Assembly: GCF_017495225.1 (NCBI RefSeq)
Contig: NZ_JAFEIG010000004.1
Coordinates: 1 to 64,000 of the forward strand
Origin: Daejeonella sp.
Lineage (GTDB): Bacteria; Bacteroidota; Bacteroidia; Sphingobacteriales; Sphingobacteriaceae
Direction: 5' to 3'
Length of the DNA: 64,000 bases
Shown here: positions 16,652-36,937 of the stretch, in pieces
Position numbering within the stretch: position 1 is the first letter of the stretch
Layout: every line of letters begins with the position of its first letter
Notes under the pieces: model-generated
Databases searched by the model: none
What the model was told of the DNA's origin: nothing
The model's input: the letters and a program-made list of their open reading frames with translations, nothing else
Made by a program: the position numbers and the translations under genes

Positions 16652-16895
16652 CCCCACTGTCCGTAAACTTCAGCGCAGCGGTGTCTACGGATTATTCAAT
16701 GATTGGAGTCTTCAGACTCATTAAAACCCCACCGCTTGAGGCTAATACTATACAACAGCCCTTCTGTTGTATTAGAAAATCAATTTTTGAAATCGAAGGA
16801 AAATTATCGGGTACTGGGAGAATTAAAAGGAGTCTGAAAACTCCTGATATTTATAAATTCTTGGAGACCGCTGCGCTAAACTCTAACGGACAGTG
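16652..16895 (+). mobile_element. MITE-like element, full copy B
   Basis: Ends CCCCACTGTCCGTAAACTTCAGCGCAGCGGTGTC and (revcomp of right end) CACTGTCCGTTAGAGTTTAGCGCAGCGGTCTC; internal hairpins GAGTCTTCAGACTC and ACAACAGCCCTTCTGTTGT. Confidence 0.8.
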
Positions 16896-18988: not shown

Positions 18989-20497
18989 ATGACTCAAGAT
19001 TTAGAAAAGACCCTTTGGGCAACCGCAGATAAACTCCGCAACAATATGGATGCTGCCGAATACAAACACATTGTACTCGGTTTAATTTTTCTAAAATATA
19101 TCTCTGATAGTTTTGAAGAACTTCATTCAAGATTACAGGGTGATAAATTGTCTGATGCTGAGGATAAAGATGAATACCTGGCAGAGAACGTATTCTTTGT
19201 ACCTCCAACAGCTCGATGGAAATATCTACAATTTGAGAGAGCCAAACTCCCAACCATCGGAAAAGATATTGATGATGCGATGGATGCCATTGAGAAGGAA
19301 AACCCCAATTTGAAAGGTGTTTTACCGAAAGATTATGCTCGTCCTGCATTAGATAAAAAACGATTAGGTGAATTGATTGACCTAATTGGAAATGTTGGTT
19401 TTTATGAACCTGGTCTAAATAGCAAAGACCTATTGGGTAGAGTTTATGAATACTTCCTTGGGATGTTTGCTGATGCCGAAGGAAAACGGGGAGGTCAATT
19501 TTATACTCCCGAAAGTATTGTAAAGTTATTGGTTGAAATGTTGGAGCCTTACAGTGGCCGTATCTATGATGGATGTTGTGGTAGTGGTGGAATGTTTGTG
19601 CAAAGTGAAAAATTCCTTCAAGCACACGGTGGAAGATTAGATGATATTTCTGTTTACGGGCAAGAGAGTAACCCAACTACCTATAAATTGGCAAAAATGA
19701 ACCTCGCTATCAGGGGAATTGATGCTAAAATTGAATTGGGTGACACTTTTCATAACGATAGACATAAAGACCTTCAAGTAGATTATGCCATCATGAACCC
19801 CCCATTTAATGTTTCCGATTATGGTGCTGAAACCTTACAGGATTCTCACTTGTGGAAATATGGTGTACCCCCTTCAGGGAATGCTAACTATGGATGGTTA
19901 CAATTAGTGATTAACAAACTAAGTCCAAGTGGAATGGCAGGTATTGTACTTGCAAATGGTGCCATGACTTCAAACTCTGGTGGAGAGAATGAAATAAGAA
20001 AGAATATGATTTTGGATGGTATGGTTGATTGTATGGTTGCCCTACCTACCCAATTATTCTTTAATACTCAGATTCCTGCCTGTTTATTCTTTTTGGCACG
20101 CAATAGAACCAACGGTAAATTCAGAAATCGTAAAGATGAAATACTCTTTATTGATGCTCGTAAATCAGGGGCATTAGTATCAAGAAAAAACAAAGCGTTT
20201 ACAGATGAGGATATCTCCAAAATCTCTGAGGTGTATCATAATTGGAGAAGTAAAGATGGAAACTATGAAGATATACAAGGTTTCTGCAAATCAGCCACAT
20301 TAAAAGAAGTTGAAGCGAACAACTTTGTTTTAACTCCTGGCCGTTATGTAGGAACTGAAGACGTAGAAGATGATGGGGTTTCATTTGAAGATAAGGTTGC
20401 AGTAATTTCTGAGAACCTAAAATCTCATTTTGAGAAATCCATTGAACTGCAAGAACGCATTAAACTTAACCTAAAAAAAGTGGGGATTGAGATATGA
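18989..20497 (+). CDS. hsdM: Type I restriction-modification system, methyltransferase subunit
   Basis: GQFYTPESIVKLLVEML, IYDGCCGSGGMFVQ, DYAIMNPPFNVSD (NPPF). Confidence 0.96.
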   Translation: MTQDLEKTLWATADKLRNNMDAAEYKHIVLGLIFLKYISDSFEELHSRLQGDKLSDAEDKDEYLAENVFFVPPTARWKYLQFERAKLPTIGKDIDDAMDAIEKENPNLKGVLPKDYARPALDKKRLGELIDLIGNVGFYEPGLNSKDLLGRVYEYFLGMFADAEGKRGGQFYTPESIVKLLVEMLEPYSGRIYDGCCGSGGMFVQSEKFLQAHGGRLDDISVYGQESNPTTYKLAKMNLAIRGIDAKIELGDTFHNDRHKDLQVDYAIMNPPFNVSDYGAETLQDSHLWKYGVPPSGNANYGWLQLVINKLSPSGMAGIVLANGAMTSNSGGENEIRKNMILDGMVDCMVALPTQLFFNTQIPACLFFLARNRTNGKFRNRKDEILFIDARKSGALVSRKNKAFTDEDISKISEVYHNWRSKDGNYEDIQGFCKSATLKEVEANNFVLTPGRYVGTEDVEDDGVSFEDKVAVISENLKSHFEKSIELQERIKLNLKKVGIEI

Positions 20498-22161
20498 ATA
20501 ATTGGCAGGAAGATAGTAACATAGATTTCAAGAGCTTAAAAAAAGCATTGGGGCCTAAGTCAGATGTTGAATCCTTAGCTGAAACTTGCGTTTGTTTTGC
20601 AAATGCTCAAGGCGGCAAGTTGGTTATTGGTATAGAAAACAAAGAATCAGAACCACCAGCTAATCAGAAGATAAATATTGAAGAAATGAATAAAGTAGTG
20701 AGCAGACTTCGTTCATTGACAGATGGTGTTGGCTTAGTTAATCCTGAAATTATTAAACACAATAATGGAGGTGAATATTTTGCAATTAACATTTTACCTT
20801 CAACTCGTATTATTGCCACAACATCATCTGGAAAAGTATTTGTTCGTATTACTGACAACTGCTATGCTGTCAAAAGTGAAGAGTTAACCGACCTTGCAGC
20901 TGAAAAAAATGCCTTTCAATGGGAATTGGTAGTTGCTCAAAAAATAACTATACAACAAGCAGATGCAGAGCAATTTAATTTTTTCATTAATCAAATTCGT
21001 AAATCAAATAAAGTATCTGATTTTATTAAAGATAAATCAGATATTGAAATATTAGAACACTACCAACTACTTTCTCCCGATGGTTATTTAACCAACTTAG
21101 GCATTCTTTGGTTGGGTACACCAGCTCAACGAGCAAGATTAAGTTATCCTATCACTTTTCAATATTTGGTGTATAACGAACGTGAAGAAAAAATAAGAGA
21201 AAAAAAATATCATTTTCATCAATATAACCCTATGCAGTTATTATTGGAAATTGAAAAAGAAGCCGTAGAACTTACCTACTCATCTGAATTAAGCAATGGC
21301 TTATTTAGAGATACTATCCGTAACTATCCAAAAGAAGTGATTAGAGAACTTTTAATAAATGCTATTGCTCATAAACGCTACACAAGTTCAGGCGATATTT
21401 TTTTAGAGGTTTATCCTGATAGAATTGTATTTACAAACCCTGGCGGTTTACCTTTGGGCATTTCAAAGGATAATATCTTGCACGAAAGACAAAGACGAAA
21501 TCCTCACTTAATACAAACACTACATGACCTAAAATTAATGGAGGGTGAAGGCTCTGGTTATGACCTTGTGTATGAGAAATTAAGTTTGGATGCAAAACCA
21601 TTCCCTGAAATAGAGAGTACATTTAATAAAATGTCTGTTACTGTACAGTCTGGAATTATTGACGAAGAGGCATTGTCAGTCATTGATTATATCAAAAAAC
21701 ATTTTCAACTTACGCAAAAGGAAACAATCACTTTAGGTATAGTTGCTACAAGAAAGAAAATATTAGCTACACAGCTATCTGTGGCTTTGCAATTAAACCA
21801 AGAAGACAAACTCAAATATTGGTTAGGCTCTTTATTAGATAAAAATATATTAATTAGTAGAGGTGTAAAAAAAGGAACGGAATATTTACTCAATCCCGAT
21901 TTATTCTCCCAAGCAAAACTAAACCTTACTCCAAGTCTTAAAACCATTGAACCTCATAAATTAGAGGCTTTGATTTTAGAAGATTTAAAATACAATGGCA
22001 AAAGCGGTATGGTAGCAATTAAAGAACGATTAAACGAAGTTTATCCTGATGATATTCAAAAAATAGTGTACAAAATGGCTCGTAAGGGAATTATTGAGAA
22101 AGAAGGAGCAGATAAAAAAAGAGCATATTTTGTAAGCATAAAAAAAGCAAATGAAAAGTAA
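20494..22161 (+). CDS. AlbA_2/Schlafen-like DNA-binding plus HATPase-type ATP-binding protein
   Basis: SLAETCVCFANAQGGKLVIGIENK and EVIRELLINAIAHKRYTSSGDIFLEVYPDRIVFTNPGGLPLGI; overlaps hsdM by 4 bp. Confidence 0.85.
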   Translation: MNNWQEDSNIDFKSLKKALGPKSDVESLAETCVCFANAQGGKLVIGIENKESEPPANQKINIEEMNKVVSRLRSLTDGVGLVNPEIIKHNNGGEYFAINILPSTRIIATTSSGKVFVRITDNCYAVKSEELTDLAAEKNAFQWELVVAQKITIQQADAEQFNFFINQIRKSNKVSDFIKDKSDIEILEHYQLLSPDGYLTNLGILWLGTPAQRARLSYPITFQYLVYNEREEKIREKKYHFHQYNPMQLLLEIEKEAVELTYSSELSNGLFRDTIRNYPKEVIRELLINAIAHKRYTSSGDIFLEVYPDRIVFTNPGGLPLGISKDNILHERQRRNPHLIQTLHDLKLMEGEGSGYDLVYEKLSLDAKPFPEIESTFNKMSVTVQSGIIDEEALSVIDYIKKHFQLTQKETITLGIVATRKKILATQLSVALQLNQEDKLKYWLGSLLDKNILISRGVKKGTEYLLNPDLFSQAKLNLTPSLKTIEPHKLEALILEDLKYNGKSGMVAIKERLNEVYPDDIQKIVYKMARKGIIEKEGADKKRAYFVSIKKANEK

Positions 22162-22361
22162 ATCTAAAAAGAAAATAACATAAGTTATTGATAATGAGGT
22201 ATTTAATTTCGTTTCATCTAAAAGCAAATGAAAACAAAACAACAGTTCTTTAAAAAATAAATGAAATTTAAAATCAACGACAAAAATATTCAATTGACTA
22301 ACATACAGAATTTTATGTCATTTATTACGTCCTTGTTTTTTAAAATAAATAGTCAAAGATT

Positions 22362-23510
22362 ATGAGTGAGTGGAAAGAATATAAATTAGGGGATTTGGTA
22401 ACATTTCAAAGGGGTCATGATTTGCCTCGTGATGATATGAAGGACGGTGTATACCCTGTAGCTGGCTCAAATTCAATTATAGGTTATCATAATAAATATA
22501 CATCCGATTTCCCTGGTATAACCATTGGGAGAAGCGGAAATATTGGGAATCCACAGTTACACAAAACTAAATTTTGGGCACATAATACAACTCTGTTTGT
22601 TAAAGAATTTAAGAATGTAGACCCTATTTTCTTTTATTATCTTCTTAAAACTTTAGATTTTTCACAATTAAATTCAGGGAGCGCTGTTCCAAGTTTGAAT
22701 AGAAACTTTATTCATCCATTTAAAGTTGAAATACCGTCCTCCATCCCAACCCAAACCGCCATCGCAGAAATCCTCTCCTCTCTTGATGATAAAATTGAAC
22801 TCAACAATAAAATCAATTATGAATTAGAGACCCTTGCTCAAACCCTTTTCAAACAATGGTTTATTGATTTTGAGTTCCCAAATGAAAATGGAGAACCCTA
22901 TAAATCATCAGGTGGTGAAATGGTGGAGAGTGAATTGGGGGAGATTCCGAAGGGGTGGGAAGTGAATAGATTAAATGATATTGCTGATTGTTTTGATAAT
23001 AAAAGAATACCATTGTCTTCAATGGAAAGAAATGTCAGAAAAGGTAATTACCCATATTACGGAGCTGCATCCCTAATGGACTATATTGATGATTATCTGT
23101 TTGATGGTGTTTATATTCTAATGGGAGAAGATGGTTCAGTTACCGACAACACAGGGTATCCTGTTTTACAATATGTCTTTGGAAAATTTTGGGTAAATAA
23201 TCACGCACATGTTTTGAAAGGACGAAAAATATCAACTGAACTTGTTTTATGTTTATTAAAAAACACTAACATAAGTGATTTAGTAACAGGCGCGGTACAA
23301 CCAAAGTTAAATCAAGGTAATATGAATAAAATTTCAATCCCATTACCTAAGGATTTATTAATAATATCTGACCTTGAAAAATTAATTACAGAATATTACA
23401 ATCTCATTCGGAATAACATTTTGGAAATTAAAGAATTAGTTAACATCCGTGATATTCTTCTTCCAAAACTAATCTCAGGTGAATTAGAAATTAACGAAAT
23501 CAACAATTAA
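22362..23510 (+). CDS. hsdS: Type I restriction specificity subunit
   Basis: Two target-recognition halves with conserved central and C-terminal repeats ([33 protein letters not shown]). Confidence 0.93.
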
Positions 23511-26500
23511 TGGCAGCAGTAATATCCGAAGACCATATAGAACAAATCGTCATTCAAGAGTTTATTGAATTGGGGTATTCCTACGTCAATGGAGCAGATA
23601 TTTCACCTGATGGTATTGCCCAAGAACGAGAGTTTGATGAGGTAGTCTTGAAACAAAGATTACAAACTGCAATTGCTAAACTTAATCCGAATGTGCCTTT
23701 TGAAGCACAGGAAGAAGCCATTAAGAAAGTTCTTAGAACAGATAGCCCCAATTTATTTCAGAATAACTATCAGGTTCATAAATACCTAACCGACGGTGTT
23801 GATGTAGAATATAGAAAAGGAGACCGTATTGCAGGTGATAAAGTTTGGTTAATTGATTATGAAAATCCATCTAATAATGAATACTTGGTGGTTAATCAGT
23901 TTACCATTATTGAAAACAATATCAATAAAAGGCCTGATATCATCTTGTTTGTAAATGGTCTTCCATTAGTTGTTATTGAACTAAAAAACGCGGTTGATGA
24001 GAATGCGACGATACATTCTGCATTCAATCAATTACAGACCTATAAATCGGCAATTCCATCCTTATTCCTTTACAATGCCCTACTCATTATCTCAGATGGT
24101 TGGGAAGCTATGTATGGTTCTTTAACCTCACCAAAGCAATTTTTTGTGCCTTGGAAATCCATAGATGGGAATATAGTCGCAGATGAAGACATCCCCCAAA
24201 TGGAGGTGATGGCAAAGGGCATGTTGAATAAAAAAGTACTGACTGACCTTATCAGACATTATATCCTTTTCCATCAAAATAAAGAACAAATCACCAAGAT
24301 TGTCCCACGTTACCACCAATACTTTGCAGTAAATAAGGCTGTAGAAACTACAAAAACGGCTACAGCTATTGATGGAGACCAACGTGCAGGAGTAATTTGG
24401 CATACGCAAGGGAGTGGTAAAAGTTTGAGTATGGTTTTTTATGCGGGAAAATTAGTTTTGGCATTAAATAACCCAACACTTGTTATTTTAACCGATAGAA
24501 ATGACTTAGACGACCAGTTATTTGATACTTTTTCACAAAGTCAGGATATACTTCGTCAAACACCTGTGCAAGCAGAAAACCGTGATGACCTTAAAAAGAA
24601 ATTAAGTGTAACATCAGGAGGCATCGTGTTTACAACCATTCAAAAATTTCTTCCTGAGGTAATTGAGAAAATTGATATCGGCGAAGGGAAAACCAAAAAT
24701 ATTAAAGGTCAATTTGAATTACTATCAGACAGAAGAAATATTGTAGTTATTGCCGATGAGGCTCATAGAAGTCAGTACGACTTTATGGACGGATTTGCTA
24801 AACACATGAGGGATGCACTTCCAAATGCGTCCTTCATAGGTTTTACAGGAACCCCGATTGAGAATACCGATAAGAATACACAAGCCGTATTTGGAGATTA
24901 TATTGATGTTTATGATATACAACAAGCTGTAGAAGATGGGGCTACTGTACGGATTTTCTATGAAAACAGATTGGCAAAAATTAGTATCAGAGAGGAAGAT
25001 AAACCGAGAGTAGATGCTGAATTTGAAGAACTCACCGAGAGTGAAGAACAAGATGACCGTCAGAAACTAAAATCTAAATGGGCAAGATTAGAAGCCATAG
25101 TTGGTAATGAACACCGACTGGAACTAATTGCCAACGATATTGTCAAACACTTTGAAACTCGTAATGAAATATTAGACGGTAAGGCTATGATTGTGTGTAT
25201 GAGTAGACGTATTTGCGTGGATTTGTATGCCCAAATAATTAAAATTAGACCCGACTGGCATAGCGATGATGATAATGAAGGAACCATTAAAGTAGTTATG
25301 ACGGGTTCATCTTCTGACCCCTTAAATTTCCAACCACATGTTAGAAACAAAGGGAAACGGAAAGCATTGGGTGAAAGGCTTAAAGACCCTAAGGACACAT
25401 TAAAACTTGCTATTGTGAGGGATATGTGGTTAACGGGATTTGATGCCCCATCTATGCACACCCTCTATCTTGATAAACCTATGCAAGGACATAATTTGAT
25501 GCAAGCCATTGCAAGGGTAAATCGGGTTTATAAGGATAAAGAAGGTGGTTTAATAGTCGATTATATTGGTATTGCTAACGATTTGAAACGAGCCTTGGCA
25601 TTGTACACCGAAAGTGGAGGGAAAGGTAAACCTGCATTCGACCAAGAAGAAGCCGCATCAGTAATGATGGGAAAATATGAAATTGTGGCTCAAATGTTTT
25701 CAGAACAACCTACTGATAAAACCGTTCAAAAGGGACTGGACTATAAATCATTTTTCACCTTAACATCAAAGGAAAAACTATATTTCCCGATTAAGGCTGC
25801 CAATTATATTTTAGGATTGGAGAATGGAAAAGACAGATTTGTAAATTCGGTAACTGCGCTGTCTAAATCATTCGCCATATCTGTCCCCCACCCCTACACC
25901 ATAGATATTAGAGATGAGGTTGGATTATTTCAAGCCATTAAAGCTCGAATTGTGAAGGTTACCCAAAGTGGTAAAGGAAAGTCAGATGAAGAGCTAGAAA
26001 CAGCCATTAAACAAATTTTGTCTGACGCTATTGTATCCGATGAGGTGATTGACATTTTTGATGCTGCAGGTATAAAAAAACCTGATATTTCCATTTTATC
26101 TGACGAGTTCCTTGCTGAAGTTAAGGGAATGACACATAAAAATCTCGCTTTAGAGTTACTAAAGAAGTTGTTAAATGACGAGATAAAAACAAGAAACAAG
26201 GTAAACTTGGTTCAATCCAAGAAATTCTCTGAGATGTTAGATAGCTCTGTAAGAAATTATCAATATAACCTGATTACATCCGCACAGGTTATTGATGAGA
26301 TGATTCGACTTGCCAAGGAAATAAAAGAAGCCGATAGACGTGGAGAGGATTTAGGTCTTGATTTCAGGGAATATGCATTCTATTCGGCTTTAGAGGTTAA
26401 TGATAATTCGGTAGCAGTTTTGGGGGATGAAATACTCAGACATATTGCCCGTGACTTAGTTGATACCGTAAGAAAAAACACTTCAATTGATTGGACGGTT

Positions 26501-26701
26501 AGAGAGAATGTACAAGCCAAGATGAGGCTTGCGGTCAAGAAGATACTTCGTAAACACGGCTATCCACCTGATATGGAATTGAAGGCTACAGAGACGGTTA
26601 TTGAGCAGGCTAAATTATTGGCAAATGATTTTTCAAGGACTCAAACAGTTTATCCATTAAAAGGAGATGATAATTTATTTTTAGCTGCGGACAGTGAGTG
26701 A
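23510..26701 (+). CDS. hsdR: Type I restriction endonuclease subunit R
   Basis: [44 protein letters not shown]-terminal nuclease [19 protein letters not shown]. Confidence 0.96.
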
Positions 26702-28689: not shown

Positions 28690-28769
28690 CTTATATTTTC
28701 CAATTAAAAATTTACCAAAGCCAACATTCATTGCGTCACCTTTTTGCGTCACCTTTAGGTATATTTTGA

Positions 28770-29008
28770 CCCCACTGTAGACTTCAGCGCAGCGGTGTCT
28801 ACGGATTATTCAATAATTAGAGTCTTCACACTCATTAAAACCCCGCCGCTTGAGGCTAATACTATACAAAGCTCTTCTGTTGTTTAGACAATCAATTGTT
28901 GAAATTGAAGGAAAATTATTGGGTAGTGGGAGAATTAAGAGGAGTTTTAAGACTCCTGATATTTATAAATCTGTAGAGACCGCTGCGCTAAAACTAGCGC
29001 TCAGTGGG
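28770..29008 (+). mobile_element. MITE-like element, full copy C with candidate 7-bp target-site duplication
   Basis: Flanked by ATTTTGA at 28763-28769 and 29009-29015; ends CCCCACTGTAGACTTCAGCGCAGCGGTG / CCGCTGCGCTAAAACTAGCGCTCAGTGGG. Confidence 0.8.
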
Positions 29009-29060
29009 ATTTTGATGGTACATTAATAAATTCACCAAATCTTAATTCCACATTTATAGC

Positions 29061-29933
29061 TTAATAGCAGTCAATTATATACTGAATTCGCTCCTTGTAA
29101 CTATCAACTGTTTTGTGCTGAAGGTTGTCGAGATAAGAAACTCGATTTTTCACTGTAGAACTGTTGGTATACCCTCCATGTAAAATTGATCTTTTCCTTT
29201 GAATGTTAGTTAAAATTAAGGCTTCGATTTCAGCTATTACAGCTGGGAGATTTTCAATAGTAGTTAAGGATAAATGCGATGCTCTACCTTGCTTAATATT
29301 TTCCCAAACCACCACAACACTGTCCTTTTTTGTTAAGAAACGAAATATAATACTCTCTTCCCTTCCAATACTATTAACCTCCAAAATCGGTATGATGGGG
29401 AATTGGGGATCTTGAAGGCTAGCTAGATATTTAATAAAAGGTTCTTTTTCCTGACTTACATTAAAAAAGTCAGATATTTGTTCCCTTGCAATTGTGACCC
29501 CAATTTTAGAGTTTGAAGATGTTTTGAATTCGTACCTATGGATGGCGATTGTTATTGCCTCAGTTAGCTTTTTCCAACCACGTGAAAATTCCTGGTTAAC
29601 CACTCCTTTAGCATGACAAAGCCGATAGGCTTTTCCCTTATAAACCCTTAAAAAGTAATCTTCTCGAATAGTATTTAATCCACTATGTACTCCCTTTAGG
29701 GTAGTAGGTTTTAAACTATATTTCGAATTTTTAAATATCAGCTTATCTTTTTCAAACCAAATGTCTGCCCACACTACGTGAATGTCTTGATACTTATCCT
29801 CTGGAAAGGATAAAGTCGGTTGTAGCGAATCAATTTTATGACCATGGCGTTTATTTAAATGTTGTTCCATGGAAACTGGATCCATAACCACACCACAAAC
29901 TGGACATATCTTTTTATCAGGTCTTGAAACCAT
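29061..29933 (-). CDS. Hypothetical protein with N-terminal C2H2-like zinc finger
   Basis: CPVCGVVMDPVSMEQHLNKRH. Confidence 0.65.
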   Translation of the reverse strand: MVSRPDKKICPVCGVVMDPVSMEQHLNKRHGHKIDSLQPTLSFPEDKYQDIHVVWADIWFEKDKLIFKNSKYSLKPTTLKGVHSGLNTIREDYFLRVYKGKAYRLCHAKGVVNQEFSRGWKKLTEAITIAIHRYEFKTSSNSKIGVTIAREQISDFFNVSQEKEPFIKYLASLQDPQFPIIPILEVNSIGREESIIFRFLTKKDSVVVVWENIKQGRASHLSLTTIENLPAVIAEIEALILTNIQRKRSILHGGYTNSSTVKNRVSYLDNLQHKTVDSYKERIQYIIDCY

Positions 29934-30016
29934 AGAGTGAGCTCAAATAATTCAATTCTACCTGACAAGATAAGAATTAAATGTCGCTTATTACTCCGTT
30001 CAATCTATATAATCAA

Positions 30017-30091
30017 TGTCTTTAGAATTTAGCGCAACGCTTCTGCGAGTTATTCAATGATTAGTCTCTTAGGACTAATTAAAATCCCGTC
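30017..30091 (+). repeat. Diverged 5' remnant of the MITE-like family (copy I), forming the 3' end of the neighbouring CDS
   Basis: TGTCTTTAGAATTTAGCGCAACGCTTCTGCGAGTTATTCAATGATTAGTCTCTTAGGACTAATTAAAATCCCGTC aligns with the MITE 5' end. Confidence 0.65.
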
Positions 30092-30847
30092 ATCAATTTT
30101 TTCAAGTTCTTGAGCAAATCGTTTCCATTCCCCTTTGGTCTTTGTTGATAGCTTGTCGTAAAGTTTTTTTATCAATTCTAAAGGCAAATTTTCAATTTCG
30201 TCTTTAGGAATTAAAATCCATTCTAAAGGATAATATTCTGGTGGAAACTTAGTGTCCGAAGCCAGTATTTCAAGTTTTTCAATTGTTGTTGAGTTTTTAT
30301 ATTTCTCTAAAAGTTCATTACGAATTTCTCCTCGCCTTTCAGGACTTAATTTCCTAAGTTCAGCAATTGCTTCTGCTCGTTTTTCTTTTCTGCCCTCAAC
30401 TCTCTTTATAACTTTTTCATACCGGTCAGCTTTCACTTTGCTCTCACTAACCTTTGCAGTTCTGAAAGAAAAGTAGTCTTCAATTGTCCTATTGCCGTAA
30501 TATGAACCACCAAATGGAACCCAAGGATTATCACAATTGCGTAGTCCAAAGTCAGCAATTTTATATTCTCTGTCTAAGCCACGATTTTGTATTACTCCAT
30601 AAACCCAAATTGCACCAGCAACTGAACCACCAATCCATTTTAATTCTCGTTCAATACAAACAAGTGCTTTAAAAACAGAAATTAAATTATTGTGAGAAAG
30701 ATTTGCAACAAGTTCTCTCCAAGTGTTACCGTGTTGTCGATTTATATAGTCTCTCGGCATGAAATACTTCAATACGGTTTCGTGAAGTTTGTCGATCGAT
30801 TTGCCTATTAAAATAAGTTTCTGTATGTCTTGCGTTGTCAGTTGCAT
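30050..30847 (-). CDS. Hypothetical protein
   Basis: 265-aa ORF with cassette-junction palindrome upstream; C-terminal ~12 residues and stop lie in the MITE remnant. Confidence 0.6.
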   Translation of the reverse strand: MQLTTQDIQKLILIGKSIDKLHETVLKYFMPRDYINRQHGNTWRELVANLSHNNLISVFKALVCIERELKWIGGSVAGAIWVYGVIQNRGLDREYKIADFGLRNCDNPWVPFGGSYYGNRTIEDYFSFRTAKVSESKVKADRYEKVIKRVEGRKEKRAEAIAELRKLSPERRGEIRNELLEKYKNSTTIEKLEILASDTKFPPEYYPLEWILIPKDEIENLPLELIKKLYDKLSTKTKGEWKRFAQELEKIDDGILISPKRLIIE

Positions 30848-30900
30848 TTGTTTGTTTCTTACTGTTCGTTCAGGTTTTGCAGTGTCGTCATAGAGTTAAA

Positions 30901-31033
30901 GGTAACAGTTTTGCAGTTTCAAGTAGTTGGCGATTTCGAAGAACAAAACTGGCTGCGAGAACTGAACTTGATACGAAGAACAAAGCTTCACTTATCCGCT
31001 GAACCGCCAATTTCTTGTAGGTGCTGTTGGTGG
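30901..31033. repeat. attC-like imperfect palindrome S1
   Basis: Plus GGTAACAGTTTTGCAGTTTCAAGTAGTTGGCGATTTCG... and minus CCACCAACAGCACCTACAAGAAATTGGCGGTTC. Confidence 0.65.
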
Positions 31034-31045
31034 CTGGTTTTCTGT

Positions 31046-32068
31046 CTATAAAGGTTCTGCACTTCCCCATCCTCTTTCTGGAAATAAATTTGTTGTCGAG
31101 TTAATATGTTTTGAACCTCCTTTGTGTGTGCTATATGTTTTACAATTAGGAAGATTTTTTTTGATACATTCTATCACAGCTTTTCTTGGATGTTTTTTAT
31201 TTCCAGCTGCTGAAACCCAATACTGTTTTGGATTAAAATTGCAAATCCAATTAGTATTAACATTTCGTCTGCTGCCGTGATGAGGAAGTTGGGCAATGTG
31301 AAAGTCTTTCATATTAAACCCATTGTTTTGTGCTGATTCATATGAATCAACGCCACTGTCAGCAGTGAACAAATAGCGTCTATTACTACTGTCTGTTAAT
31401 TGTATTATTGTACTTGTTAGATTTTCAGCTGATGTATCATTTTTTTCATCCACCACTACACAAGGTTTATTTCCCTCTTCAACCTCATTAACGTCTTCTT
31501 CTGCTTCTTTAAGTTGGTGCATTCTTTCTAATGAAGTCTTGTCAGTAAAAAATTGAACTTTCTGTTTATAAAAAGCTTCGCTTGGTCCTAACACCTTAAA
31601 CAAACTGTGTTCAAGATTTGTGTCTGAAAATATTGGCTGCGGTGTTAGTCCATAATTTTTAAGTAGCGTTTTAAAATCATCAACATCTTTTAGTGATTCA
31701 TACAATCCATTAATTTGTCTGTTTGCTATATATTTTTGATGGTATTCGGTTATTAAATTTCTCTGTATTAAATTAATATAAGCAAGAGGGTCATTGAAAT
31801 AAACTCTTTTAATGTCAGTCCCGAAATGATTAATAATTTCAGGTAATCCACCAATATGGTCACGGTGCGGATGTGAATTTATTACAATCATTATTGGCTT
31901 TGCTATCAAATGTGGTTTTATATAAGCGTTGTAATGCTTTACAACTTCATTTCCGTCTCCAGGTTTGCCACCATCAAGAAAAATGATAAAGTCACCACCG
32001 TCCTGCTTTAACCATAAAATTATTGCGTCTGCGTCTCCAACGCTTAACATATCTATACTGAAGTCCAT
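31046..32068 (-). CDS. MBL-fold metallohydrolase (ComEC/Rec2 C-terminal-like)
   Basis: SVGDADAIILWLK, INSHPHRDHIGGLPEII (HxHxDH), LFTADSGVDSYES, HIAQLPHHGS. Confidence 0.88.
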   Translation of the reverse strand: MDFSIDMLSVGDADAIILWLKQDGGDFIIFLDGGKPGDGNEVVKHYNAYIKPHLIAKPIMIVINSHPHRDHIGGLPEIINHFGTDIKRVYFNDPLAYINLIQRNLITEYHQKYIANRQINGLYESLKDVDDFKTLLKNYGLTPQPIFSDTNLEHSLFKVLGPSEAFYKQKVQFFTDKTSLERMHQLKEAEEDVNEVEEGNKPCVVVDEKNDTSAENLTSTIIQLTDSSNRRYLFTADSGVDSYESAQNNGFNMKDFHIAQLPHHGSRRNVNTNWICNFNPKQYWVSAAGNKKHPRKAVIECIKKNLPNCKTYSTHKGGSKHINSTTNLFPERGWGSAEPL

Positions 32069-32078
32069 ATTTTATATT

Positions 32079-32531
32079 TTATTTACTGTCTTTTGATGCT
32101 CTTGATTTTTCTATGCCCCAAGTAGCTTGGGCTAAGTCTTCAATTTTTGAAATGAATTTATCTACATTAAGTCCTGCAATAAAAGCAAGTGCATAGAACC
32201 CAAAATTTGAGGAGGTTGCTTCTGTTTGCGATTCAAGAAATAACAGTCCTGCTTTTAAGAATAAAAAACTAACTCCACCCGTCAAAATACTTACAAGTGG
32301 TCGGATAATATACCATGGATACCACTCGCTGCTCCATTGCTTTTTTACACTATAATTTAGATACAAACCTCGCAAGCAATATAGCACACCACCAAAGCCA
32401 CCTGCTAGTCCGCAAGTAATTGGTAACTGAAAAGGTGTTGTCCAGTCTGGAAATTGTCCGCTAAGTAAGCAAACAACAAGAGTAAATAGTCCTGCTAAAA
32501 AAAGTAAAAGATAAATCGCTATTCCTATCAT
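32079..32531 (-). CDS. Small multi-TM membrane protein
   Basis: ~4 hydrophobic segments; 10 bp upstream of MBL gene, same strand. Confidence 0.7.
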   Translation of the reverse strand: MIGIAIYLLLFLAGLFTLVVCLLSGQFPDWTTPFQLPITCGLAGGFGGVLYCLRGLYLNYSVKKQWSSEWYPWYIIRPLVSILTGGVSFLFLKAGLLFLESQTEATSSNFGFYALAFIAGLNVDKFISKIEDLAQATWGIEKSRASKDSK

Positions 32532-32575
32532 TTTGTTTGTCGTTTTATGTTGTTATGTCGATCGTTATGCTTGCA

Positions 32576-32710
32576 GCTAACGGTTTGCAGCTACCCGAAG
32601 GGCGGGACTTTTACCACAAAACTTGATTTGAAAAACTAATGTTCGTTTAACCACAAAACTGTCTTTGGAAAACGAAACCCCGCCTTTTGAGTAGGTGCTG
32701 TTATAAGCCG
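32576..32710. repeat. attC-like imperfect palindrome S2
   Basis: GCTAACGGTTTGCAGCTACCCGAAGGGCGGG...CCCCGCCTTTTGAGTAGGTGCTGTTATAAGCCG. Confidence 0.7.
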
Positions 32711-32727
32711 TTTTTCTGTTTTTCATT

Positions 32728-33750
32728 TCAAACTGTCGCAGGTGTCAGATGTGCTTGAAGTCTGGTTTCAATAATATTTAAAGGTGAAGCAATTGCATTT
32801 ACATATTGAAAATTACCATCCCTTTTATTGTCAATAGAAAGCTGAATCGGACAAGCTTGACTTTGAATTGCATTGACTTTGAATTTGTCTGTTTCGCTGT
32901 CATAAAAAACGTACGGTGCACCGGATGAACCAAACCTAAAATATCCTTTTATTAAATATCGAATGCCCTCGAATGTATAGTTGCCTCCAATTCTGTCGGG
33001 GAAAATTCCAAAATGATCAATAAACCCCTCAATCTGTGCTTTGTTCAACAGTTTGCCAACTTCACTACTAGGAGAACTTTGTAAACAATAGAAGTTCAGT
33101 TTATCGTCATCAAATATTGTGTAATCAACTTCAACACTTGGTAGGCGATCAATAATATCTTTGTTAGTATTTACAATTTTGTACAATGCGATATCCTCAT
33201 TATAAAATGCTTTAACTAATTCTACCTCTATGAAATAGGTATGTCTATTTGCTGCTGGTTCTGCCAAATACGTATTTGCATTGAAATGGGCAGTTAGTAT
33301 AGGGTCGTTGTAAAATTGATTGTTTTTAAACTGAACGATTAAATGAGGTTTACAAATATTATTTTGAGCCAAAGTAATCCAACGTGTATCGTAATTAATC
33401 CGTTTTAATTCTCCAATTATTTTTTGTGCATCTGTTTCATTTATTTGCGTTATGTATCTTTTATTAGTTGCTGGGTCGAGCAGATATGAAGAGTCAAACA
33501 ATGCTACTAATGTCGGATCAATTTTAGAAATGATGTCCGCTTGAAATGAAGTTTCAGTAATTGATTTGAACGCAGTTGCTTCAGTTCTCAAATTATGTGC
33601 TACGCTTAAAATAAATCCATTGCCAATGTGAAATGCACATATATTATTGTCATATTGTCTCCTTGTTGGTTCGTTAGGATTTTGTATCCACATTATTCTA
33701 AATAAAGGGGATTTTTGTTCATTTGTTAATTCTAACTTCTTTGCTATCAT
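32728..33750 (-). CDS. Trypsin-like serine peptidase
   Basis: GNGFILSVAHNL (His), NEDIALYKI (Asp), FRFGSSGAPYVFY (GxSGxP Ser). Confidence 0.75.
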   Translation of the reverse strand: MIAKKLELTNEQKSPLFRIMWIQNPNEPTRRQYDNNICAFHIGNGFILSVAHNLRTEATAFKSITETSFQADIISKIDPTLVALFDSSYLLDPATNKRYITQINETDAQKIIGELKRINYDTRWITLAQNNICKPHLIVQFKNNQFYNDPILTAHFNANTYLAEPAANRHTYFIEVELVKAFYNEDIALYKIVNTNKDIIDRLPSVEVDYTIFDDDKLNFYCLQSSPSSEVGKLLNKAQIEGFIDHFGIFPDRIGGNYTFEGIRYLIKGYFRFGSSGAPYVFYDSETDKFKVNAIQSQACPIQLSIDNKRDGNFQYVNAIASPLNIIETRLQAHLTPATV

Positions 33751-33768
33751 ATGTTCTGTTTTTTAAAA

Positions 33769-33791
33769 TGGCTTATAACTCCTTTATACCC
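33769..33791. repeat. Half attC-like site S3 upstream of the protease gene
   Basis: GGCTTATAACTCCTTTATACCCG, same end sequence (GTTATAAGCC) as S2. Confidence 0.4.
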
Positions 33792-33993
33792 GATAAAAAA
33801 TTTCACCCATCCACCCAAATCTAACCATATTAACGAAAATTTTTATCGTTTTAATTAGCTTCGAATATATAATATTATCTCAAAAAGACACAAAAAATAA
33901 TAAATAAGAAACATAATATACTAAAAAATTAATAAATTTCAAAATATGCAATCTGTAATCGCCTAAAAAAGACGCCATTACAAGCTAAGCCTT

Positions 33994-34229
33994 CCCACTG
34001 TAAACTTCAGCGCAGCGCTGTCTACGGATTATCCAATGATTGGAGTCTTCACACTCATTAAACCCTTTTTCAATGATTATCGTCTTCACACTCATGAAAA
34101 CCCCGCTTCTTGAGGCTAACACTCTACAAAGCTCTTCTGTTGTTTAGACAATCAATTTTTAAAATCGAGGGAAAATTATCGGGCACTGGGAAAATTAAGA
34201 GGAGTTTGAAGAGTCCTGATATTTATAAA
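33994..34229 (+). mobile_element. MITE-like element copy D (right TIR lost; long subtype)
   Basis: CCCACTGTAAACTTCAGCGCAGCG...CTGATATTTATAAA; contains an extra internal hairpin unit CAATGATTATCGTCTTCACACTCATGAAAACCCC. Confidence 0.75.
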
Positions 34230-34249
34230 CTATTAATTTCTATTGAGTT

Positions 34250-34294
34250 TCTATTGAGTATTTGTTGTTTTTCTAACATAATCTACTCAATAGA
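34250..34294. repeat. Perfect 11-bp inverted repeat TCTATTGAGTA...TACTCAATAGA
   Basis: Between MITE copies D and E. Confidence 0.6.
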
Positions 34295-34314
34295 ATATCT
34301 TGCCCAACGATTAA

Positions 34315-34589
34315 CCCACTGTCCGACTTCAGTGCAGCGGTGTCTACGGATTATTCAATGATTGGAGTCTTCAGACTCATGAACCCCTTTTTCAATGATT
34401 ATCGTCTTCACACTCATGAAAACCCCGCTGTTTGAGGCTAACACTCTACAAAGCCCTTCTGTTGTTTAGAAAATCAATTTTAAAAATCGAAGGAAAATTA
34501 TCGGGCACTGGGAAAATTAAAAGGAGTCTGAAAACTCCTGATATTTATAAATCTGTAGGAGACCGCTGTGCTAAAAATAGGGGATAGTG
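34315..34589 (+). mobile_element. MITE-like element copy E (long subtype)
   Basis: CCCACTGTCCGACTTCAGTGCAGCGGTGTC...GGAGACCGCTGTGCTAAAAATAGGGGATAGTG. Confidence 0.75.
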
Positions 34590-34628
34590 AAAGAATTAAG
34601 AGGAGTCTGAAGACTCCTGACATTTACA
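34590..34628 (+). repeat. MITE 3' fragment F
   Basis: AAGAATTAAGAGGAGTCTGAAGACTCCTGACATTTACA directly abuts copy E. Confidence 0.6.
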
Positions 34629-34646
34629 GCAATAGCTATAGGTTTT

Positions 34647-34991
34647 TTACGAATTAACCACGTTTAAGAAATCTTCAACATCTTTCTTTAGTAAAGTTAG
34701 TGCATCATAGTTCCGTTTTGCTTTTGTAATTCTTGCGGCTAATTCTGTGGCCTCCTCTTTTTTATCATGTGTAAATCTATCAGGATGCACTTTAACTATT
34801 AATTCCTTATACAATGCCTTGCTCTTAGAGATACTATTTGCTATGTTTTGTGCAGTACGAATGTAGTCGTTAGTTCCATCTGCTAGTACTTTTTTCCTTA
34901 GGTTGGATTTTTTTCGTTGACTAATAATTATTTGTATGATGAAAGGTACAACTGTGATAATTGAAAGGACCTTTAAAATTTTTGATTTCAT
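34647..34991 (-). CDS. J-domain (DnaJ-like) protein with N-terminal TM
   Basis: LYKELIVKVHPDRFTHDKKEEATELAARITKAKRNYDAL (HPD motif). Confidence 0.75.
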   Translation of the reverse strand: MKSKILKVLSIITVVPFIIQIIISQRKKSNLRKKVLADGTNDYIRTAQNIANSISKSKALYKELIVKVHPDRFTHDKKEEATELAARITKAKRNYDALTLLKKDVEDFLNVVNS

Positions 34992-34994
34992 ATA

Positions 34995-35426
34995 TTATTT
35001 ATTTAACATATAACTGTGAAGATTAGCAATTTCTTTTAGTGGTATGTGTACGCCCATGTATGAATTTTTACCTTTGATAATTAAGGTATCATAACCTAAT
35101 GCCATTAATTGTCTAACAAAAGCTGCACTTTCAATAACATAACGTGAGATTTCTACAAAATCATTTTCTTGTAAATTATTATCGTTTTCAATTGTTATTT
35201 TAAAACCACTTCTTAAATAAAATGTGCTTAATTCGTGTTTAAAATTTGGATTCCCAGGTGATGTTGTTACTGTACAAAGCCGGTCAATATCACGACCAAA
35301 ATAAGCTTCTTTGAAAACTAAGTTAAATTCTCTTATTATCCTTACTCTTTCAAGATTACCTTGAGAAACAACATCAACTACTCTGTTTAAAAGTTTTGCT
35401 AGTCGGGAAAAAATGTTTTCTGCCAT
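34995..35426 (-). CDS. Hypothetical protein paired with the J-domain gene
   Basis: 3-bp intergenic gap to J-domain gene, same strand. Confidence 0.6.
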   Translation of the reverse strand: MAENIFSRLAKLLNRVVDVVSQGNLERVRIIREFNLVFKEAYFGRDIDRLCTVTTSPGNPNFKHELSTFYLRSGFKITIENDNNLQENDFVEISRYVIESAAFVRQLMALGYDTLIIKGKNSYMGVHIPLKEIANLHSYMLNK

Positions 35427-35480
35427 ATTTTATTTCTATTTAGTTTTTATTTAATATACTATCTATTCAAACTCAACAAC

Positions 35481-35608
35481 AACGATTAGTGCCTCTCATG
35501 CAGTAGAGATTTTGCCACAAATATTGAAGAGAAGTGATAATGTTTACTTAACCACAAATGTCTTTGAAAAACACTTAACCCTCACTTTTTCATTATCCGG
35601 TCTATAAG
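35481..35608. repeat. attC-like imperfect palindrome S4
   Basis: TTTTGCCACAAATATTGAAGAGAAGTGATAATGTTTACTTAACCACAAATGTCTTTGAAAAACACTTAACCC is homologous to the S2 core. Confidence 0.65.
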
Positions 35609-36691: not shown

Positions 36692-36887
36692 CCCACTGTC
36701 CTTAGACTTCAGCGCAGCGGTTTCTACGGATTATTCAATGATTGGAGTCTTCAGACTCATTAAACCCTTTTTCAATAATTATCGTCTTCCCACTCATTAA
36801 AACCCCGCTGCTTGAGGCTAACACTTTACAAAGCCCTTCTATTGTTTAGAAAATCAAGTTTTAAAATCGAGGGAGAATTATCGGGCA
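36692..36887 (+). mobile_element. MITE-like element copy G (3' truncated)
   Basis: CCCACTGTCCTTAGACTTCAGCGCAGCGGTTTC...GAGAATTATCGGGCA. Confidence 0.7.
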
Positions 36888-36909
36888 TAAACATCAATTA
36901 ATTTGAAAA

Positions 36910-36937
36910 CCCCGTAGGGGCAGGTCGCGACCTGTCC
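36910..36937. repeat. Palindromic repeat CCCCGTAGGGGCAGGTCGCGACCTGTCC
   Basis: Contains GGCAGGTCGCGACCTGTCC; second copy at 38635. Confidence 0.85.

Follow-up and report, generated by a model that had tools for sequence, protein, structure and literature searches.

Gated MBL nucleases, of which two insertions are a hallmark (Tuck et al., PMC12799240), are switched on by partner proteases (PMC12799240). In Kiwa, Zorya, and SNIPE, a membrane component and a DNA-acting effector work at the DNA entry point (PMC12904381). A plan of one membrane protein (A) and one MBL protein (B) is represented in PADLOC as PDC-M48, which is a predicted candidate system only, and our literature search on PDC-M48 or '6A-MBL' found no paper. 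We analyzed a locus of Daejeonella sp. within a 64,000-nucleotide stretch of DNA (this whole stretch is called the window) and found an MBL family that is related to the gated nucleases and widespread, yet coupled to membrane proteins that appear swappable.

The first-pass annotation had read three minus-strand genes in an accessory island, encoding a trypsin-like protease, a small multi-TM protein, and an MBL-fold hydrolase, as one candidate conflict module. All three open reading frames are present at the positions in Table 1, and the island is rightly called accessory, with type I restriction and HipA/HTH-like genes close by. The TM and MBL genes lie on the same strand with 10 bp between the TM stop and the MBL ATG, and the HPHRDH motif occupies MBL residues 66-71. 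The term multi-TM is fair, as two strong (residues ~1-29 and 74-100) and some weaker hydrophobic segments were seen in the TM protein. We judged TM-MBL to be a two-gene unit and the protease to be an unrelated neighbour, not a member of the module.

Table 1. Positions of the genes, palindromes, repeats, and related loci (window coordinates unless a locus is named).
Feature	Position	Strand	Description
MBL gene	31046-32068	minus	340 aa; MBL-fold, ComEC-like predicted DNase, PADLOC PDC-M48B family
TM gene	32079-32531	minus	150 aa; small membrane protein, type C membrane partner of MBL
Protease-like gene	32728-33750	minus	340 aa; probable serine protease, own cassette
Palindrome S1 (attC-like)	30910-31027	minus	End of TM-MBL unit
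Palindrome S2 (attC-like)	32584-32701	minus	Boundary between protease unit and TM-MBL unit
GGCTTATAAC	32709-32700		Start of S2
GTTATAAGCC	33770-33779	minus	Protease unit start; perfect 10-bp complement of S2 left arm GGCTTATAAC
Shared block	31025-32571	minus	86.6% identical to Crocinitomicaceae MAG Ww9 (L040)
Other palindrome copies	L146 4765-4882; L147 5346-5463; L148 4983-5098
265-aa protein	30050-30847		Directly after S1
Type I restriction hsdM/S/R-like ORFs	18989-26701		Identified by reading
Long repeat copies	16653-16886; 28744-28993; 34000-34626; 36700-36931
P2-like phage loci	L125 558-2146; L124 423-2011		Escherichia phage D8; P2_4E6b

We compared the MBL protein with known families and structures. 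It matched the PADLOC model PDC-M48B (PDLC04677) over its full length (residues 1-340 on model positions 1-339, 8.4e-104), which places it in a defence-candidate family and supports that part of the first-pass reading. Weaker matches were obtained to LmuA, RTasMBL, and the C-terminal part of Avs1a, with bit scores of 98, 68, and 30, respectively, versus 346 for PDC-M48B. A profile search of the PDB revealed the ComEC nuclease domain as the nearest solved relative by sequence. The AlphaFold2 model, built from 56 sequences, was confident (pLDDT 95.3), and its best PDB fold was the ComEC MBL domain 9ic4, with phosphorylcholine esterase domains ranking second. No housekeeping match for the TM and MBL genes was found: the MBL protein is ComEC-like, yet unlike ComEC/Rec2 it stands alone with 340 aa, has no channel domain, and has ~70 more residues separating its metal motifs, the distance from HxHxDH to HHGS being 197 residues where most ComEC-type proteins in the phylum have ~125. 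By the secondary structure of the model, the extra residues, about 70 (~72), lie at ~94-138 and 164-217. Gated immune nucleases carry inserts at these places, and the motif spacing agrees with the two-insertion plan of gated DNases. The two segments may restrain the active site; in the model the first of them consists of ordered helices and does not look like a disordered gate. The MBL query found no relatives among viral contigs.

We assessed the pairing of the MBL gene with membrane genes in 84 loci, of which 80 came from an MBL profile search and 4 from a search of the phylum, and scored the 75 loci in which the MBL gene was intact and not at a contig end. A pair was counted when a same-strand gene with TM segments, as predicted by a simple method, lay <=60 bp from the MBL gene. 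The results showed that a membrane gene pairs with MBL in 59/75 loci, compared with 68/515 other genes of the same loci (p 8e-31), the independent cases being slightly fewer than 59/75 since L011 and L047 are one locus and L095 and L100 are near-copies. By the same simple prediction, 16/75 MBL loci had no nearby membrane gene. The TM and MBL genes, proposed earlier to be operonic, are indeed so, and are conserved as a pair in at least 14 named phyla. No third same-strand gene lay within 60 bp in 35 of 61 pairs. In most loci the membrane partner comes second, but in the window group it comes first. The first-pass annotation had named a lack of co-occurrence of the three genes in other genomes as what would refute the module, and on that count the three-gene co-occurrence does not hold: TM and MBL are kept together, whereas the protease has no relative in the MBL loci (0/84).

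Among the matches listed, the genes flanking TM-MBL loci coded for restriction specificity subunits, DNA methylases, and TIR and ubiquitin-like (E2/ThiF/JAB) proteins. The Pfam and PADLOC searches behind this cover the 25 commonest families, so that a protease of another, rarer family may also be present among the neighbours. Some loci (L041, L043) have ordinary neighbourhoods. Plasmids and P2-like phages also carry related MBL-membrane pairs, there with a membrane gene that can be convergent or divergent, and one plasmid copy carries the annotation 'competence protein ComEC'. In the P2-like phages, the site beside the replication gene gpA, plausibly a cargo site, holds an MBL relative and, convergent to it, a small PDC-M48A-like membrane protein. 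A second MBL-type protein adjoins the TM-MBL pair at L044, L051, L056, L082, L086, L088, and L094. Six flanking genes, among the matches listed, matched PDLC04673, another PDC-M48B model.

At a phmmer threshold of E<1e-3, the membrane partners fell into four sequence types: A (n=35), B (n=16), C (the window, L040, L095, and L100), and D, which comprises patatin-like lipases carrying TM segments. Type A includes PDC-M48A as a subset, and the partners at L043, L054, L078, and L087 matched PDC-M48A at 1e-29 to 6e-62. In contrast, the window TM protein had no PADLOC match, with no detectable similarity to PDC-M48A, and in Pfam it had only a sub-threshold match. Comparison by hhalign revealed no similarity between type C and the other partner types, and a weak similarity of long type A proteins to type B. 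Relatives of the window TM protein are 91% identical in L040 and 48% identical in L095 and L100, and all lie upstream of an MBL gene. The window pair thus resembles PDC-M48 in its full-length PDC-M48B match, its two-gene membrane/MBL plan, and its adjacent same-strand genes; because its membrane subunit lies outside PDC-M48A, we filed it as a variant and not as a member.

We then considered how the partners are distributed over the MBL lineages. The window MBL is 54% identical to that of L041, whose partner is type A; the MBL of the Polynucleobacter locus L095, whose TM protein is of the window's type, sits far away on the tree. The MBL tree requires at least nine changes of partner type (shuffled mean ~18-20), and an AU test, carried out once the groups had been seen, rejected grouping the type C MBLs together (p 1e-67); the trees were quick searches, with long branches on some rows. 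These changes, together with the rejected grouping, suggest that the membrane subunit is interchangeable among MBL lineages. As far as the sequences tell, the window membrane family has been paired independently with a distant MBL lineage. At L011/L047, L044, L064, and L126, MBL relatives are coupled to patatin-like phospholipases with TM segments, and once (L011) a TIR-domain protein then follows; these loci are possibly a lipase-nuclease double effector. Two membrane partners, at L058 6944-7531 and L054 7007-7534, weakly matched Csx27, the type VI-B CRISPR membrane protein (7e-5 and 0.009).

We compared window positions 29000-35500 with L040 by blastn and found nothing in common outside the shared block, one end of which lies inside S1 and the other ~10 nt past the end of S2. 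On this comparison, the TM-MBL pair moves as a block. The palindrome S2, described earlier between the protease and TM genes, is real, and belongs to a family of imperfect palindromes of 116-118 bp that has five copies spread over four contigs of the genome; the reversed-pattern control gave 0. The arm ACAGCACCTAC is common to 5/5 palindromes and GTAGCTGCAAA to 4/5, and 4/5 fold the same bulged hairpin; S1 folded alone gave no clear hairpin. S2 starts with GGCTTATAAC, the complement of the protease unit start, and this 10-bp complementarity to GTTATAAGCC was reached by 8/5000 shuffles. Integron cassettes are built with complementary ends and attC-like palindromes in such a plan. Such an arrangement, attC-like palindromes of constant plan between same-strand genes together with complementary ends, was found here. 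In the 98.6% complete genome, the search for the integron integrase IntI gave a best TIGR02249 score of 79 bits versus a cut-off of 265, with weak Xer-level matches only. The palindrome family may mark cassettes that lack an integrase, or may point to another kind of cassette mobiliser in Bacteroidota. Each of the five copies adjoins accessory-looking genes.

The triad motifs of the protease-like gene were confirmed as LSVAHN (His52), DIAL (Asp186), and GSSGAP (Ser276), and the three residues are invariant in the window protease and its two relatives, each 60% identical, which were found in 375 class genomes. The query had 0 relatives in viral contigs, plasmids, and 346 phylum genomes, and none in Pfam, NCBIfam, PADLOC, or PDB. 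Structure prediction, which succeeded for the MBL protein, did not do so for the protease, whose single-sequence model reached a pLDDT of 33. Both relatives stand alone: the 13-15 kb examined contain neither an MBL gene nor a type C membrane gene. The gene is probably a serine protease in its own cassette, and the suspicion in the first-pass annotation that it is independent was correct. The three-gene module was rejected: the L040 block carries no protease, the scan of 84 MBL loci gave no protease relative, and neither of the two relatives has an MBL or TM gene as a close neighbour. The related MBL proteins of the gated nuclease-protease pairs (HamM, Avs1a, Lamassu, DRT) and of Canu also have extra segments between the metal motifs. 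However, the window MBL scores far lower against LmuA, RTasMBL, and Avs1a than against PDC-M48B, its partner is a membrane protein and not a protease, and, unlike in Avs1/HamM/Lamassu, the window protease is unfused, lies in another cassette, and does not co-occur. TM-MBL is not a nuclease-protease pair.

Because of the nuclease type and its regular pairing with a membrane protein, we propose, with about even confidence, that TM-MBL is a membrane-anchored or membrane-controlled predicted DNase acting on incoming phage or plasmid DNA. The restriction, methylase, TIR, and ubiquitin-like neighbours, the spread over phyla, the block shared with L040, and the occurrence on plasmids and phages speak for this reading; the 16/75 loci with no nearby membrane gene, the ordered helices of the first insert, the candidate status of PDC-M48 itself, and the ordinary neighbourhoods at L041 and L043 speak against it. 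The MBL protein would be a ComEC-like DNase of the cytoplasm, its active site likely held back by the two inserted segments. The small membrane protein would contact it, tethering it to the inner membrane and/or lifting the restraint. Delivery of phage or plasmid DNA, or membrane disturbance, would be the trigger, and the released nuclease would cut either the incoming DNA or, in an abortive response, all DNA, giving an anti-phage role in which the protease cassette would not be needed. This working principle would be like that of Kiwa, Zorya, and SNIPE, although no common protein families were detected and the effector here is an MBL; neither the TM nor the MBL protein had a PADLOC match to KwaA or KwaB of Kiwa. 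More tentatively, and with less than even confidence, we suggest a protease-independent branch of the gated immune nucleases in which control would have passed to an exchangeable membrane subunit of at least four sequence types, one of them a patatin-like lipase with TM segments. Membrane events during DNA entry, and not proteolysis, would arm this nuclease, and the window's own subunit is not covered by the PDC-M48A models of PADLOC. Should the membrane protein act as the switch, the same nuclease chassis would be under two different controls, and PDC-M48 and its relatives would be testable with a two-gene construct.

The main rival to the DNase proposal is a toxin/restrainer pair, in which a toxic MBL nuclease would be silenced at the membrane by its partner, and loss or disturbance of the partner would kill or arrest the cell, stabilising mobile DNA as much as defending the host. 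The two-gene layout on plasmids and phages, the partner swapping, and the toxicity of opened gated nucleases (PMC12799240) are consistent with this, but the variable gene order and the patatin-like lipases of type D are unusual for an antitoxin, and we consider it unlikely. The same lipases, like the phosphorylcholine esterase domains among the fold matches, point to another reading, that of a membrane-linked MBL hydrolase acting on a non-nucleic-acid substrate (a lipid, a phosphodiester signal, or a phosphorylcholine-like group) with the membrane protein as its locator. This is improbable, as ComEC comes first by a clear margin in sequence and fold and the other MBL families matched are immune nucleases.

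The closeness of the ComEC MBL domain in fold and sequence, and the single plasmid copy annotated as ComEC (n=1), would also suit a DNA-uptake accessory, in which the MBL and membrane proteins process incoming DNA for transformation in a split-ComEC-like manner. We hold this to be very improbable: the ComEC channel domain is absent, the membrane partner has only 150 aa and varies between loci, the phylum has separate full-length ComEC proteins of ~800 aa, and the distribution of TM-MBL is patchy and mobile. Most improbable is a three-component system in which the protease cuts the MBL inserts and thereby activates the nuclease, as in the nuclease-protease pairs of Avs1, Hachiman, and Lamassu. 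The adjacency of the genes on a single strand, a gated-type MBL, and a probable trypsin-like triad would fit it; against it are the separate cassettes of protease and TM-MBL, the lack of protease relatives in the MBL loci (0/84), the stand-alone position of the protease's two relatives, and the fusion of published partner proteases to a sensor (PMC12799240), which the window protease does not share.

Two further features of the surroundings were observed. The 265-aa protein directly after S1 has no Pfam family and is probably a third cassette of the same array. Around the island there is a long repeat with inverted ends, ~226 nt in length, whose copies are 60-95% identical.
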